The notes beneath the pieces were generated by a model. It did no database searches and was not told the DNA's origin. It was given only the letters and a program-made list of their open reading frames with translations. Both the position numbers and the translations under genes were made by a program. From Roridomyces roridus (taxonomy: Eukaryota; Basidiomycota; Agaricomycetes; Agaricales; Mycenaceae), in assembly GCA_029378245.1 (NCBI GenBank), contig JARKIF010000003.1, positions 3,162,001-3,226,000 on the forward strand: a stretch of DNA of 64,000 bases, in the 5' to 3' direction. Positions 20,993 through 64,000 of this stretch are shown here, piece after piece. Each line of letters opens with the position of its first letter. Position 1 is the stretch's first letter.

Positions 20993-23900
20993 TTAATGTG
21001 GATCACTGTTGACATGTGTGGGAAATGATACAGTGGATTTTGCAGGAGGTTTGACTGCTGTCCCATGCTCTAGGAGCAGCTTTGCAACATCCAGGTGGTC
21101 ATTTGCAGAGGCACGGAGCAGCGGAGTTGAGCCATACTTGTCGGCGGCATTGACTGCTGCCCCATGTTCCAGGAGCAGCTTTGCGACATCAAGGTGGCCC
21201 TTTGAAGAGGCATGGAGCAGCGGAGTCCGGCCATCCTTGTCGGCAAAATCAACTGCTGCCCCATACTCTAGGAGCAGCTTTGCAACATCCAGGTAGTCAT
21301 TTGCAGAGGCATGCCGCAGCGGAGTCCAGCCATCCTTGTCGGCAAAATCAACTGCTGCCCCATGCTCTAGGAGCAGCTTTGCAACATCCAGGTAGTCATT
21401 TGCAGAGGCATGCCGCAGCGGAGTCCAGCCACCCTTGTCGGCAGCATCGACTGCTGCCCCATGCTCTAGGAGCAACTTTGCAACACCAAGTTGACCATTT
21501 GCAGAGGCACAGAGCAGCGGAGTCAGGCTATCATTGTTGGCAGCATCAACTGCTGCCCCATGCTCTAGGAGCAGCTTTGCAACATCAAGGTGGGCATTTG
21601 CAGAGGCACGGAGCAGCGGAGTCAGGCTATCATTGTTGGCAGCATCAACTGCTGCCATGCTCTAGGAGCAGCTTTGCAACATCAAGGTGGGCATTTGCAG
21701 AGGCACGGAGCAGCGGAGTCCAGTCATCCTTGTCCGCAGCATCAACTGCTGCCCCATGCTCTAGGAGTAGCTTTGCAACATCAAGGTGGCCATTTGCAGA
21801 GGCATGCCACAGCGGAGTCGAGCCATACTTGCCGGCAGCATCGACTGCTGCCCCATGTTCTAGGAGCAGCTGGGCAACATCAAGGTGGCCATTTACAGAG
21901 GCATGGAGCAGTGCAGTCCAGCCATACTTGTCGGCAGCATCAACTGCTGCCCCATGCTCTAGGAGCAGCTTTGCAACATCCAGGTGGTCATTTGCAGAGG
22001 CACGGAGCAGCGGAGTCAAGCCATCCTCGTCGGCAGCATCGACTGCTGCCCCATGCTCTAGGAACAGCTTTGCAACATCAAGGTGGCCATTTGTAGAGGC
22101 ACAGAGCAGCGGAGTCCAGTCATCCTTGTCCGCAGCATCAACTGCTGCCCCATGCTCTAGAAGCAGCTTTGCAACATCAAGGTGGCCATTTGTAGAGGCA
22201 CAGAGCAGCAGAGTCCAGCCATCCTTGTCGGCAGCATCAACTGCTGCCCCATGCTCTAGGAGCAGCTTTGCAACATCAAGGTGGGCATCTGTAGAGGCAC
22301 AGAACAGCGGAGTCAAGCCATACTTGTCGGCAGCATCAACTGCTGCCCCATGCTCTAGGAGCAGCTTTGCAACACCAAGGTGGTCATTTGCAGAGGCATG
22401 CCACAGCGGAGTCCAGCCATCCTTGTCAGCAGCATCAACTGCTGCCCCATGCTCTAGGAGTAGCTTTGCAACATCCAGGTGGTCATTTGCAGAGGCACGG
22501 AGCAGCGGAGTCGAGCCATACTTGTCGGCAGCATTGACTGCTGCCCCATGTTCAATCAGCAGCTTTGCAATAGTAGGATGTTGCATATCTAAGGCAAGAT
22601 GCAGCACTGTCCGGGCACCCCGGTCAAGGACATCAACTGACACATTCCTAGAAACAAGCAAATACCACACCCCTCTTTCAAACCCAATCTCTGCACACAT
22701 ACAAATTGCTGGTATACTGTGGTCATTCCATGAAGACCCCTGTAATTGACACAACATGGTGTATTGGCTACTTCCATCCTCCAGCAGATGCATTGTTGCT
22801 GGGAGTAGTTGCTCCTGGTCTGTTTCATCACAGTGCTGGAAGTGCTTGAACCAGTATTTCCCTGAATATTGTGCAAGTGGGTACCCAATCCCAGTGTCCA
22901 GAGTCATAAGATCACTTTCTGCAAACACAAGGAGATAGCGGAGACAGGTTTGTGCAATGAACTTGTGTGAGATATTCTTGCTTAGATCAAAAATTGATCC
23001 ATGCTCTTGATGAAACTCGTTGGAAAGCACCCAGTCTTGAACGGATGAGTGGGCAAAACTGATTGATTCTTCCCATTCATTAGTGTTGATCACAATGAGT
23101 CCACCAAGCAACCCAAAAATCCGAGAATTTCCTGTGCGCCTGCCAGGGCAATGAAGTGATGCATCCAGATTGGAAAAGTCAAAATATGGCAAGTCCAATC
23201 GAAAGGCAATAGCATCTGCAAGCTCCTCTGGTGATAGCTCTCTTTCTGCAAAGACAAGCCACCGTAGTATGGCCTGAATGAAAACTGATGGCAATTTGGC
23301 TTCTGCCTTTGCACGTTCAAGGAAACGGCTGTAGATGCTGAAGAGATCAGCTGGCAGAGCTGCAAGGACCTCGTCCCATTCATTCTCCCAGAGACAATGG
23401 CGCAGCTCAATGATCAAGCAATCTGCCATGCGGAACCTGCTTATATCCTTAGTTGGAATCAACAATTTAAATTTGACTCACATTCCACTGCTCTGTTTCA
23501 CAATTTGTTTGGTGACTGAGTCGGCATGTTCACCATCATTAGACATCACCAAAATTTTACTGTGGACAAAAGATCTTATGTCCTCATCCAGGATCCATGC
23601 ATACAACTGTATGCAAGGAATGTCCTTGAAGCCTGTATGAAATTCCTGGCGAGGTTGACTTGTGAACAGCAAATGTGGGCACTTTTTGGCACAACCACTT
23701 AATCTGTTCACAAAGGCAACAAGACCTGCCCAATCCTTGTTGCGGCATTCATCCAGTCCATCCAGAACAATGTATGCCTGTCCCAGTTCTACAACCAAAT
23801 CATCAAGCACCTTTTGGAGATCTTGCCGAAGTGGCTGTATGGATCCATTTCCAAGCTGTTTATAAAGATTGGAAAGACAATCATGTGCAGCGTCTGACTT

Positions 23901-42815: not shown

Positions 42816-45800
42816 TCAGAGATTCCATCTGACCCTAAACTGTTCCCATATTTGAGTCCAGTGTTCATCACCATCTTGGATCTCCGATGTTTCAACTGTC
42901 TCTGCTAAATTCTCTAGGAGGGTGTGGATTCTTTTCAGCTCCTCGTCATCTAGTGAGGTTGATTTTGACCTTTCTGCAGCCGCAAGGATGACAATTATCA
43001 AGGATGAATTTAGTTCTGTCAATCCATTTGCTGGGAAAGCGGGCAAACCCTGGTTGTCCAGTTCTATTTTCAGGGCTGCCCAAATTGTTGACTTGATGAG
43101 TGGTCCCAGAGCATTGAGATGGTCATTTCCAGTGAAAGCAAAGGAGTCCCAGATTGAACACAGCAATGTGGACACAAGGACTCTGGGTTTCTGCCAAGTG
43201 CCTTGAATATTTCTGTTTTTGATACACCATATGTCCCAAATGGTGGAAGTAAACTCAGCCAACTGGGTTGGATAGTCAGGTACTGGGTTCCACAAACTCA
43301 GCCACGTGAATAGCTCTGAGCGAAGGTAATGGTGCCAACTTCTTGTATCCGCCAGATTTCGACCAATATGGTAATATTCATTGCAGATACTGGATCGTTC
43401 AGTTGCCATTTCCCCAAGGAAATGCCAAATATTCAAGCTCTGTGTCATTGACCAGACATCTGTATCATTGAACCATGCCTGTTTGCTTGCCTGAGCTATA
43501 AACGAAAAAATCCTTTTGCAGTTTATAAAGCCGGTAGATGGGCCACAGAGCAAGAAATGTTGCAGAAGCATTTTCAATAATGCGCTGGGAGGCTTATTCC
43601 GTAGACCATCTTCACATTGGACAAGTGTCTTTGTCAGTTTCAAAGCAGTTGATGTGGGTTCTGCTGTAGATTCCAGAGCATGAGGTATGGCCAGATATAG
43701 CCATTGGACATGTTCTGCGGAAAACAGGATGTTTTCACACGGCCACTCTTCTCTCTGGTCCTCTATAACTTCAAATATGGTGCATATGGTATCCATTGAA
43801 GTCAGTGCAGCTGCTGCTGGTTGGAAAGCGAGGGTTTTGCACATTTCCAACACAATTGAGATGTCTGTATGGTGTTGAAATGTAATCAGGGGCTCTGCCT
43901 CAGTCTGCTTGAGCACATGCAGTATCTTTTGAACAATTGAGGGCAGATTTTCAACAGGTATATTAGCATTTTTGGCTTGCATGCTCAGGTTTTTGAGAAT
44001 TTGGAAGAACAGTGGGCCTTCAAATCCACTGTGAAGGAATTAGATATCACACCCACTACGGGATTGTATAAAAACTGACCCTTTGTATACACGGACCATA
44101 TCTGCTTTCATCACAGGGTCAACCGAGATGAATGAGTTGACACAAAACAAGAACTCTGACACCAGGGCACCTTCAACCTTGTTCTCTGCTGCGTCCAGGA
44201 AATCATCCAACATGTCACTCTCCAGCGGTATGGATGGAATGACATGCAATAGCCATCCAATAGCTTGAGTATCTGAATTAAATGACAATCGTGATGGGGC
44301 AAAACTGTCAAGTGGCGGGAGTATGGAACTAGTGCTGATGATGATTTTGAATATGTTTCTCAACCGTGGATCAAAGGGTTCATCCGGTAGGACTCCATCG
44401 CAGAGTCGATTCCAGCCTTCTGCTTTTTCCAGAGAGGGGTCGATAACACGCAGGGTACAATAGGCACGCCCAAAATGGGTGGCATTGGGCAACATTGTGT
44501 CACGAACTCCATAGATTATCTCACGGCCCATTGAGTCTGGGTAGTGATAAACACACTGGAGAAAATTGTCGCGCAATCGGGCCATCAGCAGCTGTAGATT
44601 TCCCACATGAGATGGCCACTGAAGAGTGCCAGCAATTTCTGCACAAATGGACAGTATCTTGGGATCTGTGGAGGTTTCAATCATCCATGAAACTGCATCC
44701 ACTTCAGGGGATGGTTCCAGGGGATTTTCCCAAGGGAGGACAAAAGGTTTCTCAGGATGAGGTCCTGGCACATTGGCAAGAGGGATGCCAGAAATTGGTA
44801 GAACAGATTGTGGTGATGACCAGGTGAGGATCGGGTTCCACAGGAATTTTAATTTAAAAGTTTGGTGTTGGATCAATGACCCAGTAGCCACCAATATGCG
44901 GTTCCAAATGCCTCGATAAGTTTGGAGCTCAGCTGCTTGTTTCCAAACATCTGTGATGACTGCCCAAGATCGCTTCAAAGGATAAGCAAGAGGGCTTTGG
45001 AATGGGGAGTCTGTGAAGGCCATTGCAGATACAAGAAAGGCAGAGTAGGAAACAAAGCCAGTTGCTGTGAGCATCATGGCGATAATTGCCAGCACATGGT
45101 GAACAGTCCATAGATAGACCGAAATACCCACTGCAAATATGAGCAGGGCAAATTGAAGCATCAGGGGAAACAGCCGCATGATGGTGTTGAAATTCCACCG
45201 ACGAAGACCCTCCAATTTTCGTTGTCTCTCGAGCCCACGTTCTGCAATGGTTCCTCGACTTTCACCCGCTGAAGAATAGTACATCAACCACTGTTTCCCC
45301 AGAACAGCCAGCAGAGCAGCAAGGAGAGTAGCACCCAGGCTGATATAAAGCAGGCTCTGAGCCACTAGCACCAGAATTGGAGGATTTGAATCTTGAACTT
45401 GGGGTTGAATTTGAATAATGAATGCTGAGCTGACTGCGGAAAATAAACCGGCCTGTCCAAATCACATCAGAGTTGTGATCTTTCCTGAAATTCAAGAGGA
45501 CACACAAAAATCAAGGTTGTATCAAGATCTGTGCCATATTTTTGTTGATACTCCTTGTCATATTCATCCGAGACTGCTCTGTATGCATTCCAGAACTCGG
45601 TCTTCTTGTCCACCACAGGTTTCTTTGGTGCGAGGTCATCAACCAATCTTTGAAGATCAATTAGTAAGAGACTTGTGGCAATGGTGCCAGCATTTCACCT
45701 TCTCATCTGCTCTTGATTGTCCCGAACGACAGTTTTCAAACAGTTCTGAAGTTCTTCAAGGAATCTATGGCATTCAACTCTTGAGAAATCAATAAAGCAA

Positions 45801-59233: not shown

Positions 59234-59923
59234 TCAGCGGGCTGGGTATGGTAAGTGCCAGAAAATGAACAAAGACGGTGCGTACATGCAGAGGGCTGAG
59301 TAGTCGGTGCCTTTGCGCGCGACGTCGACGGGCGTTGCTGAAGAGACCTCGAGGTGAGTCGTTGTCGGCGTGAAGAGAGCAACATCGCACCTGATCCGGG
59401 GAGTTACTCTGCGGCTTGACATCCGACTGACGTTTGGCTTTCTTTGCTGCGCCGTCCAAAGGATCCTCTGCCGCCTTGCGCTTTCCGGGACTGTTTGCCA
59501 CGATGAGCTCGAAAGGAAAGGAAAGAACAAGCTAACGACGCACCGCACAAAGTCAGCTGCACCACCACACAGACTCCGAATCCCATCCCGCACCCTCCCC
59601 ATCTCGCTAGTAGCCTTCTCCGCTGACGCAAGCCATCCACGCAGCTCCGAACGCTGTCCATCCAACTTGCGCGCCTGCGTGTCCAAATCGTCCTTCTTGA
59701 TCGCCAGTGCTCTCAGTTTCTCGACCTCCTTGCGTAACTTATCGCGCTCCTCGGTGACCTCGTCCACCTCTTCAGTAAGCTCGTCCACCTGGTCGGTCAG
59801 ATCCTCGATTTGCTTCTTGAGGGACTCAATTTCGTCCGCGCGAGAGGAGACAATGCGCCAGCTTTGTTCAGTTTCCTTGCGACGCTGGTCGAGGGCGCGT
59901 TGGATGAGAGTGAGGGAATCCAT
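59234..59923 (-). CDS. coiled-coil nuclear-type protein, copy 2
   Basis: Four exons, 59923-59544, 59490-59391, 59337-59286 and 59241-59234, give 179 residues. The N-terminal two thirds are a coiled coil (ALDQRRKETEQSWRIV, then IEDLTDQVDELTEEVDEVTE). The second exon carries a bipartite NLS (KRKAAEDPLDGAAKKAKR). It is a tandem paralog of 58235-58829, sharing the intron position after the VR residues and the KRKA motif. Probably a nuclear structural or regulatory protein, by inference only. Confidence 0.65.
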   Translation of the reverse strand: MDSLTLIQRALDQRRKETEQSWRIVSSRADEIESLKKQIEDLTDQVDELTEEVDEVTEERDKLRKEVEKLRALAIKKDDLDTQARKLDGQRSELRGWLASAEKATSEMGRVRDGIRSLCGGAADFVRCVVSLFFPFLSSSSWQTVPESARRQRILWTAQQRKPNVSRMSSRRVTPRIRCDVALFTPTTTHLEVSSATPVDVARKGTDYSALCMYAPSLFIFWHLPYPAR

Positions 59924-60202
59924 TCGCGATTGATCGTGGTGGTACAGAGCAAGCAGTGACGTGATGCTTGGTCTTGTGGACAGCGTCACACAGTCACAAC
60001 ATTTTCTCTTCTCCATCATGTTCTCTGCTTCTCTGTCCCGTTGGATTCAGGCGGCTCTAGTGCACAATATTGTGCCTCTGATGGTGTGTCTTCTCCTCAT
60101 GAACACGAGCCAGCGTTCTGACTGCTCAATCGGATCGGGAACGGACGCCGAACACCGGCTAGTACTTAGCCTCCAGTTCAACGTTGGGTATGGCAGAGGA
60201 GA

Positions 60203-60292
60203 CACTCGATAGCGAAAAGTATCGCGTCTGCAGCAGGTTGTCCTCGAGTAATCTCCTCGCAGAAGTTGTTCGTTCGAACCGGGCTCGAGTGG
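60203..60292 (+). tRNA. tRNA-like Pol III unit 1
   Basis: Acceptor stem CACTCGA (60203-60209) pairs with TCGAGTG (60285-60291). The D stem is GCGA/TCGC, the anticodon stem TCTGC/GCAGA encloses a 27-nt loop that would include an intron, and the T stem and loop are TGTTCG/TTCGAAC/CGGGC-like. A T5 run at 60318-60322 can terminate Pol III. The base at position 33 is not T in the straightforward register, so the anticodon cannot be assigned. A CACTA-like element begins 15 bases after the T run. Confidence 0.45.
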
Positions 60293-60336
60293 ATACTTGG
60301 TGGATAAGGTGTACACCTTTTTCCACCCTCGCCCAA

Positions 60337-61003
60337 CACTGCATTCCGCGACCGTGTAGGCAAGGCTGTGCCTTGCAGTGCCGACATCTGCCTACCGCCT
60401 TAGGCACACCATTTTTGCTGTGCCTAGGTCAGAAAAATACAAACTGTGCCTCGCTGTGCCGACCCTCTGCCTACCCTCTGCCTACCCCCAGCAGTAGCTG
60501 TCCCTACCGCTGGGCCTCTTCACCTCTCTTCACCTGGCCTCGCTGCAACGGCGCCTCCACGCTCTGACAGCTGTGTGAGCCTCACAGATCTGAGTATCAC
60601 CCTCCGCCAAACGGCGTCCCTCGGTTGTGGACGGAAGAATCGGACAGCGTCGAGTTAACTGTTATGAACAAGTGAGGCCTGGGCTGAGGAAGAAGTCGAC
60701 AACGAGCTGCGTGAATGAAGAGGACTGAGCAGAAAACGGCAAAATTTGCCGACTTTTTGTGTGTCCACTGTCAGATGGGTATCAAATGACTTTCTCATGT
60801 CTTGTCAAGCCACCCCACGCCCTACCCCAGCAAGTCGGGCGACTCTTGGGCGCCTTGGGGGATGTGTACAACGGCGAAACTAAACTAAGACCACCTAGGC
60901 AGAGGGAAACTCACCCAACTCAGCTGGGTCTATCCTCAACCGTGCCGACATGTGCCTACACCCCTAGGCACACCCTGTGCCTATCAAGCCTCGGAATGCA
61001 GTG
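60337..61003. mobile_element. CACTA-like non-autonomous element
   Basis: Terminal inverted repeats CACTGCATTCCG (60337-60348) and CGGAATGCAGTG (60992-61003) are perfect. The flanking trinucleotides are CAA on both sides, the 3-bp target duplication expected for EnSpm/CACTA elements. Just inside both ends lie clusters of TGTGCCTA / TAGGCACA words (60350-60490 and 60895-60985), as in CACTA subterminal repeats. No transposase frame is present in the 667 bp. Confidence 0.65.
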
Positions 61004-61351
61004 CAATTCCATCGGCCTTCGCTCTCAATGGTGCCACGAACCACGAGCGGATGCGCAACTTTCAGTTCCCCTGGATATTCCGGGTAGTTCAAATTGAAGA
61101 ATCTACGCGTATTTGATGTTTTGATTCAAGTGCGCACAGACCTAGTATGCGTGTATTTCTCGCCAGCCGGTTGGTCCTCCAAGGTCGAGTGGTGACATTC
61201 AGTTTTCGGGTGGAGGGCTCGACGGTTATCGGATTATCGCGAGAAACCAAACCAGTGGTCTTTTGCTCATGAACCTGAGCCAGTGTTCTGACTCCTCAGT
61301 CGAGGACACCGAACTCTAGCCTCCAGTTCAACTTTCAGCTTGGAAGAGGAA

Positions 61352-61442
61352 CACTCTATGGCGAAAGGTATCGCGTCTGCTGCAGGTCACCGTGGACTTT
61401 ACTATGCTCGCAGAAGTTGCTCGTTCGAACCGGGCTCGAGTG
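61352..61442 (+). tRNA. tRNA-like Pol III unit 2
   Basis: Same fold as unit 1: D stem GCGA/TCGC, anticodon stem TCTGC/GCAGA with a 29-nt loop, T stem GCTCG/CGGGC with loop TTCGAAC. The acceptor stem CACTCTA/TCGAGTG has one mismatch. T6 terminator at 61463-61468. Confidence 0.45.
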
Positions 61443-61836
61443 GGTCACGAAGAATTGCAGCATTTTTTGCCCTGCCTCATTTTCATCCGCTTTGGCGGCC
61501 CAATATCGTACGTAGCCCAGGCTCTCTAGTCACGCAAGAGTGGGCCAGTTGTAAATTGGGCCGATGTCACTTACAACGCACGTTGAGCACTTGGGGAGCG
61601 GAATCCATGATCTATACGGTGCACCACAGCAGCCGTAGGCAAATACGATAGCAAATACGATAACTGCACGAGCAGAGCAGGCGGGAAACCTCGTCCCAGT
61701 CGGCGCTCAACCGGTCGACGGGGATACATAACCGAATGATGCCTGGTTGAGGAATGCTGATGAATGTTGATGACAACAGAATCGCCATGGAAGCCGAACG
61801 CTAGCGTCCACATCAACTTTGGGTTTGGGAGAGGAA

Positions 61837-61928
61837 CACTCGATAGCGAAAAAGTATCGCATCTGCAGTAGGTTATCCGGCACATTTCCGCGCCAGCAGA
61901 GGTTGTTCGTTCGAACCGGGCTCGAGTC
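61837..61928 (+). tRNA. tRNA-like Pol III unit 3
   Basis: Acceptor CACTCGA with TCGAGTC (one end mismatch), D stem GCGA/TCGC, anticodon stem TCTGC/GCAGA with a 29-nt loop, B box GTTCGAACC. T5 run at 61960-61964. Confidence 0.4.
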
Positions 61929-62255
61929 GATAAGATCTAGCCGTGCACTATGAACTCTCTTTTTCCCTCCCCTCGTCTAATTTCTTGCGTTACGGCCGGC
62001 CCAAGGCCCGCACAGTAGCCCAGGCTTTCTAGACACGCAATAGTAGACCAGTTGTAAACTGGGCTGACGTAACTTCCAGCTCACGCTTGTTGGAAGGCCA
62101 TTGGAGAGCCTTCCAGGATCCACACCACAGCAGGCGTAATACAAATATGATAGCTTCACGAACAGAGCAGAAGGCAAAGCTCATCACAGGCGGCACCTAT
62201 CCGGCTGAATGATCCCTGGCAACAGCCCACTTGATGAATGTTGATAATGGAGGAA

Positions 62256-62342
62256 CACTCGATAGCGAAAGGCATCGCGTCTGCTGCGCCTGTTGACTTT
62301 ATTATGTCCGCAGAAGTTGCTCGTTCGAACCGGGCTCGAGTG
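62256..62342 (+). tRNA. tRNA-like Pol III unit 4
   Basis: All four stems are perfect: CACTCGA/TCGAGTG, GCGA/TCGC, TCTGC/GCAGA (25-nt loop) and GCTCG/CGGGC around TTCGAAC. T6 terminator at 62364-62369. This is the best-folding copy. Confidence 0.5.
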
Positions 62343-62369
62343 GATGGAATCGGCACCGCAAGGTTTTTT

Positions 62370-63424
62370 GCCCTGGCATCGCGGAACCAGCCCCGTTGAA
62401 ATTCCGCTGGTTGTGATGCCCGATCACTCTAAGGATCACCTCGGCGCTCCGGCGATCACGGCATATGCACAGCTAATACACAGCCTCTGCGCTGCGGGCC
62501 GACTGTGCTCGCAGTTCAACGCAGTTCAAAGCGGTCAGGTGGGTGGCGCACGGACACCCGTGGACAGTATAAATAGGTCTCTTTCGTAGTCAGTAGATAG
62601 GCATTCTGAATATTATAGATTTATCGACTCAAGCCTCGTGTTTACGACGAATCTGCAACACTCGGAATCTCCGTGTCTATGACTTCTACATCAAGAACTC
62701 CGTAGCCTCACAACGATCAGGGACATCGATGAATTGATGAATACGATCAGCGCCAAGTCCAGACCAGGTGTTCCGAGCTTGAGACGGATCGCCGCGCCAG
62801 GACACCGAAGCAAATTCGTGTGCCGATCACACTGGGCAGGTTTCGGCTCGTCTTGGCAGGTTGCTGAAGCAGTCCCCCTGACCTCCCTTGTCATGAGAAT
62901 CGAGATATTGGGCGCCCACCAAACGCCTAAATTACCGACGACGGGGAACGTTCAACGGGAAACTTCACACCAGTGACCATCCGGGTTCTGGGTCGCGGAC
63001 AGTGTTCCTGAACTCAGGTCGAGCCAAAACTGCCCCTCGAGGGAACTCCGCCAAGTTTCAACTCTTGGATTTATCGTCCAGTTGCGTGGTGACGACCCAT
63101 TGCGAATTCGACGCGACGATTTTCGATGCGGTGCCTGTCACCGCTCGATCCAGACTTGTTTGGTGCATGTCTGGATGAGGCACGGACGTGCAAGACGCCA
63201 TAGAGCCAACTAGTCCCATAATGCCATTATTGGGCGATCCGCCGTACTACAGTAATTATTTCTGCTCCTCGCAGAAACACTCGTAAGTACGGGTTATGGA
63301 ATATTTCTTGGCGATCGGAAGTCGGCTGTGACATCTCTCTGAGACCGCCGATGGTGTATTAATTAACCCTGACGTCTAGAAACCAGCATATCCAACTGTG
63401 TTCAATGTGTTTGACCTCCGTTTG
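62370..63424. other. intergenic, nothing recognised
   Basis: A plus-strand frame runs over unit 4 to 62589 but is a by-product of the tRNA-like sequence. No other gene seen before the secreted-protein promoter. Confidence 0.4.
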
Positions 63425-63651: not shown

Positions 63652-64000
63652 ATGTACGCCAAGACCACCGTCGTCTCCCTCCTCCTCGCTTCCTCGGCGT
63701 TCGCCGCTCCGCTCTCCCAAGAGGCTGTCGAGGCCCGTGAGCTCGAGGCCCGCGTCCGCCTCCCCACCGGTGCCCTCGCCGGCCTCGCCAAGACCTTCGG
63801 GAAGGGCGTGCTCAGCGGTGGCGCTATCACCGGTCTCCTGAGCCTTTTGGGCGGGGTCGGTGGCGACGACTCGTCTTCCTCCGCGTGAGTATTCTTTCAC
63901 TTGGTCCACATATCTCATCTCATCCCTGTTTCTAGCCGCCGTGACCTCGAGGCCCGTGCCTGGTCTCGCCGGCGTTCTCGAGAAGCTCATCGGCGCCGGC
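63652..64000 (+). CDS. small secreted protein with Kex2-like repeats (partial)
   Basis: Exon 1 (63652-63886) starts with a signal peptide (VVSLLLASSAFAAPLS). It is followed by ARELEARVRLPTGALAGL, a Gly/Leu-rich helix and DDSSSSA. After a GTGAGT...TCTAG intron, RRDLEARA repeats the [RE][ED]LEAR motif, which suggests Kex2 cleavage into short peptides. Beyond that the written frame becomes Arg-rich, while the next frame gives GLAGVLEKLIGAG, resembling the first repeat; a one-base shift is possible here. The gene continues past the window. Confidence 0.6.

Follow-up and report, generated by a model that had tools for sequence, protein, structure and literature searches.

A large family of putative Pol III-type, tRNA-like units with variable loops and trailers in the mushroom Roridomyces roridus

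An array of four tRNA-like units

The window analyzed here is a stretch of 64,000 nt of Roridomyces roridus contig JARKIF010000003.1. Using an explicit cloverleaf descriptor, we located an array of four tRNA-like units at 60203-62342, all on the + strand and each with the acceptor, D, anticodon, and T stems and the B box that the original prediction had described. From acceptor to acceptor the units span 60203..60291 (unit 1), 61352..61442 (unit 2), 61837..61928 (unit 3), and 62256..62342 (unit 4), so that their starts are irregularly spaced, 1149, 485, and 419 nt apart. Each unit pairs at 4/4 positions in the D stem, at 5/5 in the anticodon stem (TCTGC/GCAGA in all four), and at 5/5 in the T stem, which in unit 1 belongs to a T arm at 60268-60284 (+). 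The acceptor stem pairs at 7/7 positions in units 1 and 4 and at 6/7 in units 2 and 3. A 19-nt string of T arm and acceptor occurs 4 times in the 64 kb, vs a mean of 0.01 in shuffled sequence.

The anticodon-type loops, all on the + strand, measure 27 nt (60232..60258), 29 nt (61381..61409), 29 nt (61867..61895), and 25 nt (62285..62309) in units 1 to 4, as predicted (25-29 nt). They start with AG, TG, AG, and TG, which makes position 33 a G in 4/4 units and bears out the claim that T33 is missing. Past the acceptor, the first run of four or more Ts starts after 26, 20, 31, and 21 nt, inside the 18-32 bases expected. Trailer and terminator-like T run together occupy 60292..60322 (26 nt, T5), 61443..61468 (20 nt, T6), 61929..61964 (31 nt, T5), and 62343..62369 (21 nt, T6), again on the + strand, and the base at position 74 is A or G, not T. 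The B box GTTCGAACC with a downstream T5 or T6 is present in all four units, as in type 2 Pol III genes. The A box consensus is TRGYNNARNNGG; TRGCGAAA is found in 4/4 units, with GG directly behind it in units 2 and 4 only.

The flanks of the units are partly duplicated as well, in blocks of 34-71 nt with 81-84% identity. The block directly 5′ of unit 1 (60167..60200, +) has copies at 61317-61350 and 61802-61835 (82% each), and a block 3′ of unit 2 (61512..61582, +) has a copy at 62015-62085 behind unit 3 (83%). The copies of the 60167-60200 block show duplication at the DNA level, although this block could alternatively be a promoter element. Between units 1 and 2, and outside of them, lie repeats of GTGCCGACATSTGCCTACC and TGCCTACCCTC at 60378-60410, 60457-60487, and 60942-60974.

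Copy number and terminator spacing in the genome

We searched the genome (90.8 Mb, 501 contigs) for related units. The window T-arm string matched 25 places with ≤2 mismatches, vs 5 for the reversed control, and these matches cluster on contigs C179, C301, and C469 and occur as pairs on C13. The pattern GTTCGANYCNGG followed by 22-38 nt and TTTTT, which places the T5 14-30 nt past the acceptor, gave 725 forward-strand matches, compared with 4 (4+2) for its reversed control. With the T5 moved nearer (5-21 nt) or farther (52-68 nt), the forward matches fell to 23 and 35. For this T-arm pattern, then, hundreds of sites have their T5 in the interval 14-30 nt past the acceptor, and few have it closer in or further out. 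A more restrictive pattern gave 73 forward matches vs 0 reversed, and a pattern closer to the window units gave 18 vs 2. These spacing controls (23 and 35 vs 725), together with the shuffle mean of 0.01 in the window, led us to reject a chance origin of the units and of the pattern.

Only forward counts are quoted because on the reverse strand a single site is counted anew at every T-run offset. By symmetry, 2 x 725 gives about 1,400 loci, a figure in which haplotype copies and some genuine tRNAs are counted. Near-identical or identical stretches were seen on separate contigs (L050/L051, L041/L043, and C6:46360/C13:608162), from which the assembly seems to contain both haplotypes in places, inflating the counts. 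Sorting 70 sampled units by sequence (blastn at 1e-6 over 60 nt) yielded 46 families. A search with model R1 gave 66 matches at E≤1 in 23 sources (227 kb); they include true tRNA genes, which score 21-22 bits, and we derived no family count from this search. Among the matches listed, our impression is that many lie near the ends of large contigs (C1, C2, C112, C223, C469), with internal matches also on C13, C24, C35, and C57.

The trailer is held to a narrow length. In 71 strings from the 725-match pattern, the commonest trailer lengths are 20 nt (14 of the strings) and 22 nt (12 of them). We also measured 97 T arms in the fetched loci, some of which had been selected with a pattern that includes the T run, unlike the 10-kb loci L038-L051. 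In 76 of these T arms the distance to the first T4+ run is 14-34 nt, most often 20-22 nt. In 127 such strings, base composition stays patterned as far as the position behind the discriminator, where T stands in 67%, and is near flat from there to the T run.

We conclude that the family is real, large, and, as judged from its sequence, of Pol III type, and that it is not recognized in the literature searched. Among the open-access PMC titles listed by our searches, none dealt with such arrays, which does not prove novelty.

The tRNA-like fold

The units belong to several unrelated sequence families built on one plan: acceptor, A box/D arm, anticodon stem, loop, T arm, and acceptor. Across families the anticodon stems are of the TCTGC or TCCGC kind, and the acceptors are as different as CACTCGA/TCGAGTG, GACTCGA/TCGAGTC, CACGCGA/TCGCGTG, ACTCGGT/ACCGAGT, GGCTTGG/CCAAGCC, and GTCCCGC/GTGGGAC. 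In an alignment (A3) of 13 units hand-chosen for having a cloverleaf, 93.2% of stem cells are paired, vs 87.4% in shuffled controls and 17-42% in slid controls, the latter leaning towards the structure because it was drawn from those same units. Seven pairs show two-sided change compared with 3.4 in shuffled alignments, of which 4/500 reach 7; further pair types, one of five measures, show no excess in these 13 units (12 vs 13.1 shuffled). Two other alignments, A2 and A4, were kept out of the pair counts because their families differ in register. The paired stems with two-sided changes in the 13 chosen units support the proposal, made in the original prediction, of a tRNA-derived ncRNA family under selection on its fold.

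Pairing can also be asked of units that were not selected for fold. Using the 70 of 76 sampled units with enough upstream sequence, we found a 7/7 acceptor partner in 30, compared with a shuffled mean of 9.9 and maximum of 16; most of this excess comes from partners that begin 65-74 nt upstream of the T loop. A 7/7 partner with an A-box-like start behind it was found in 13 units vs 1.1 in shuffled sequence (max 4), and in the 70 units the bin lying some 60 nt ahead of the T loop holds 19 A-box-like matches, vs 2 in the same bin of the reverse complement. The remaining 40/70 units have no 7/7 partner, and 6/7 pairing taken without the A-box condition shows no excess (56/70 vs a shuffled mean of 50.4 and maximum of 60). 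Sampled units in which we recognized no cloverleaf have the T arm, an acceptor-like strand, and the T run; these may have longer loops or other folds, or may have decayed. Four loci (L046, L047, L041, and L058) carry T arm and T run at the family spacing, and in them no convincing cloverleaf was seen.

A good share of the units therefore carries a tRNA-like fold together with promoter-like boxes and a held distance to the terminator. The expectation that genome copies would keep their stems while their loops vary was largely borne out in the samples, with copies far above expectation, except that many sampled units lack a recognizable full cloverleaf. Loops in the recognized cloverleafs are by our own reading mostly 24-31 nt long, with lengths up to 73 nt. 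Single-sequence folding energies of 12 units, 4 of them from the window, are unremarkable (z from 0.00 to -2.61), and about 6/12 of the minimum-energy folds are four-way cloverleafs, again by our own reading.

What varies and what is kept

Mean identity among the window units rises from 0.60 in the 60 nt upstream to 0.87 in the 5′ half, falls to 0.56 in the loop, reaches 0.95 in the 3′ core, and returns to 0.45 in the trailer and 0.51 downstream, with shuffle levels of 0.45-0.50. Two further arrays show the same order, both halves above loop and trailer; in this comparison the ends of some C2 units are misplaced by one base, and an internal TTTT truncates one of the C2 trailers. Across arrays the flanks are nearly as diverged as the trailers, and the conserved parts exceed both. 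Stems are thus kept and loop and trailer lie near shuffle identity, in line with selection on the fold, although within the window array a fully free loop did not hold up (0.56 vs 0.47 shuffled, compared with 0.45 for the trailer both observed and shuffled).

Contigs C179 and C469 carry related arrays in which single units can be compared pairwise. In the a4/b1 pair only 12/29 loop positions are identical, compared with 54/56 aligned letters close upstream and 253/270 downstream (38 gap columns), and the stem that closes the loop has changed from TCCGC/GCGGA to TCCAC/GTGGA. In the a6 pair the loop is kept (26/27) and the trailer has changed, with 13/30 columns identical vs 91/110 downstream (p=4e-5); measured against the upstream flank, the same trailer is not significantly different (p=0.065). 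The a1 trailer behaves likewise (10/32 columns vs 68/110 downstream, p=0.003). The a5 pair, one of the four C179/C469 pairs, is conserved in body and trailer apart from the loop, which differs by an 8-nt indel and at one base. Window units 2 and 3, aligned with short flanks and by separate segments, show no significant trailer change (p=0.14 and 0.2). All of these p-values take alignment columns as independent, for pairs examined after the pattern had been noticed.

One C469 unit (L040:4362-4451) matches a2 of C179 in its upstream flank and body and a3 in its downstream flank, a mosaic as expected from unequal exchange. We thus observe a high copy number and free loops and trailers and, in the arrays examined, duplication of units together with their flanks.

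A trailer RNA as the proposed product

We consider it close to, though short of, an even chance that the units are non-decoding tRNA-like RNA genes with the trailer as their product, forming a huge family of roughly 1,400 loci. Each gene would be driven by its internal A-box/B-box promoter and ended by the T run, with Pol III producing an RNA of about 110-130 nt. RNase P and RNase Z would recognize the tRNA-like body, and an RNase Z cut behind position 73 would release a trailer RNA of about 20-26 nt including the U run, mostly with a 5′ U. This RNA may be loaded into Argonaute or otherwise act via base pairing, and the tRNA-like body would serve as a scaffold that is disposable or separately used. 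In the arrays examined, DNA duplication and unequal exchange would add new gene copies; selection would retain the T arm, the acceptor stem, often the entire cloverleaf, and the spacing between acceptor and terminator, leaving the anticodon-side loop and the 3′ trailer to vary freely. We infer Pol III transcription, RNase P and RNase Z processing, the trailer as product, and function from these features. The trailer is singled out because of its narrow length with near-random content, the T behind the discriminator, and the precedent of the Neurospora milR-4. Against this reading, the window units themselves have A or G at position 74, and the T found there elsewhere may reflect no more than a tolerance of RNase Z.

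With a tRNA-like moiety, a trailer of about 20 nt, and a T run, the units have the arrangement of a tRNA-linked milRNA precursor, making the trailer a candidate small RNA, and the genome has Argonaute (Piwi) genes (44 exon-level Piwi matches). In a genome search, the loop of unit 2 found no second site with ≤3 mismatches, and two trailers found, besides themselves, 3 and 2 three-mismatch matches, vs 2 and 1 for reversed controls. With no second near-perfect site for one loop and two trailers, near-perfect targets in the species' own genome are not supported. An unlikely extension is that more than 1,000 modular Pol III genes use the tRNA-like body to deliver an exchangeable trailer of about 20-24 nt, with loops and trailers swapped as segments between otherwise intact units, so as to diversify a repertoire against foreign or fast-changing sequences.

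Several known systems resemble the proposed one. Ordinary tRNAs yield tRF-1, or pre-tRNA 3′ trailer RNAs, small RNAs that lie between the RNase Z cut and the U run, just as the proposed small RNA would lie here. The TMERs of murine gammaherpesvirus 68 have hairpins behind a tRNA-like head. From these the R. roridus units differ by a trailer of only about 20 nt and by forming a fungal nuclear family. According to PMC3547838, the tRNA moiety of a TMER is followed by small-RNA parts that RNase Z releases. The same source describes the Neurospora crassa milR-4 as derived from a tRNA precursor in an RNase Z-dependent manner, and milR-1 to milR-4 as having a T run directly behind the small RNA (PMC3547838). 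Like our units, milR-4 is fungal and has a tRNA-type, Pol III-style precursor layout with a T run at its end. RNase Z sets the 5′ end of milR-4 (PMC3547838), the cut that we propose for the R. roridus units. As described there, milR-4 is one locus on predicted tRNA-Ala genes, in contrast to non-decoding units at many hundreds of loci.

If the units are expressed, they would form a very large fungal family of tRNA-like ncRNA genes, with window units that have no Rfam match, and would show that a tRNA scaffold can be used to deliver variable RNA segments on a mass scale. The signature of T arm, trailer of about 22 nt, and T run makes it possible to scan other mushroom genomes.

Alternatively, the full-length tRNA-like RNA could be the product, with the loop as its variable acting part (antisense, decoy, or protein-binding) and the trailer as filler. 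The a4/b1 pair speaks for this, its loop having changed between close flanks conserved at 94-98% and its closing stem having changed in step, and so does the mostly 24-31 nt loop of the recognized cloverleafs. We still think it rather unlikely: the trailer is more variable than the loop, its length is narrowly held genome-wide as filler would not need to be, many units have no recognizable anticodon arm, and the one loop searched, that of unit 2, has no second genomic match.

It is also conceivable, with a low probability, that the DNA alone matters, as TFIIIC/Pol III sites that serve as boundaries, as landing sites for insertions, or as points of recombination, and that any RNA is a by-product. 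TFIIIC-bound tDNA clusters are known as boundaries, the B-box T arm plus T run make up the genome-wide signal, and more than half of the sampled units lack full acceptor pairing. A pure binding site, however, has no need of an acceptor stem that closes or of a terminator kept at a set distance, and it leaves unaccounted for both the excess of fully paired acceptor stems (30/70 vs 9.9) and the two-sided stem changes.

Relation to mobile elements

Mobile-element remnants with a tRNA-like Pol III head, either tRNA-derived SINEs or the LTRs of Helenus-type TRIMs, could likewise account for many unit copies in one genome. Helenus elements carry a tRNA-like sequence in their LTRs and are reported from Agaricus, Coprinopsis, and Amylostereum (PMC10886601), so that such TRIMs are known from Agaricomycetes. 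Among the literature searched they are the nearest described tRNA-like elements in mushrooms, and they share with our units the tRNA-like sequence, the many families, and the occurrence in Agaricomycetes (PMC10886601). AfuSINE2, a tRNA-related SINE, likewise places tRNA-related sequence in a fungal genome and is reported with target-site duplications.

In the window array, unlike in Helenus, there is no LTR-like pair and the flanks are duplicated along with the units. The direct repeats in 59900-62700 include no near-identical pair, the copies in the listed families being 67-91% alike. A DNA search of the genome with unit 2 returned 4 matches, all in the window array, and no dispersed copies, and homology between window units reaches 34-63 nt and more upstream of them. 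We therefore reject SINE copies within the window array, and the SINE head suggested in the original prediction fails for this array, since homology runs upstream of the units and the only relatives of unit 2 are its three array mates. For the family as a whole, the 46 families among 70 units and the stems that are kept next to sequence near shuffle level also argue against mobile-element remnants, which we regard as improbable.

Relation to ordinary tRNA genes

No match to Rfam at gathering thresholds was found in the whole window, and at E≤10 the tRNA family RF00005 is absent among the 4 matches in 60000-62600. In the same genome RF00005 matches at least 61 places (63 of 4178 candidates scored). 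Plain ARAGORN called one array unit in the window, unit 4, as tRNA-Ala(cgc). When introns were allowed, it called family-type units Leu, Ala, Val, Tyr, Ile, Lys, Asp, Ser, Pro, Gln, and Arg, and some even Pyl or Stop, more than 10 isotypes in all; ARAGORN-type annotation of such genomes would thus produce false tRNAs of scattered isotype. Neither a 7-nt anticodon loop with T33 nor an intron that would leave one was found in any of the four window units. In the few ordinary tRNAs that ARAGORN called in the fetched loci, a T4+ run begins 0-10 nt behind the gene. One locus (L001) has four tRNA genes, all Ile(tat), two per orientation, with a T run directly behind each and no trailer.

It is very improbable that the units are tRNA pseudogenes or unusual intron-containing tRNA genes: ARAGORN labels some of them tRNA and intron-containing tRNA-Lys genes do occur in the R. 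roridus genome, but the window T run stands at 20-31 nt, not 0-10, and decay would not leave stems better kept than flanks. With no RF00005 match at E≤10, a G at position 33, and scattered isotype calls, an ordinary or intron-containing tRNA was rejected for the window units, and with it the earlier suggestion of intron-containing tRNA genes that could not be decoded. C/D-box guide RNAs were rejected as well, the Rfam matches being far below gathering scores and the loops, by eye, having no C/D boxes.

Other features of the window

ORFs for an ankyrin-repeat protein lie at 20993-23465 (-), with 99-nt repeats in 15.3 copies and 88% matches between copies. At 44040-45371 (-) a DUF6535 protein is encoded; among the matches listed, its named relatives are mostly from Mycena and kin, and the best named ones are from Mycenaceae, the first from Roridomyces roridus itself (60%). 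The start of an ORF at 63653-64000 (+) resembles a small secreted protein, with a putative signal-peptide-like start.
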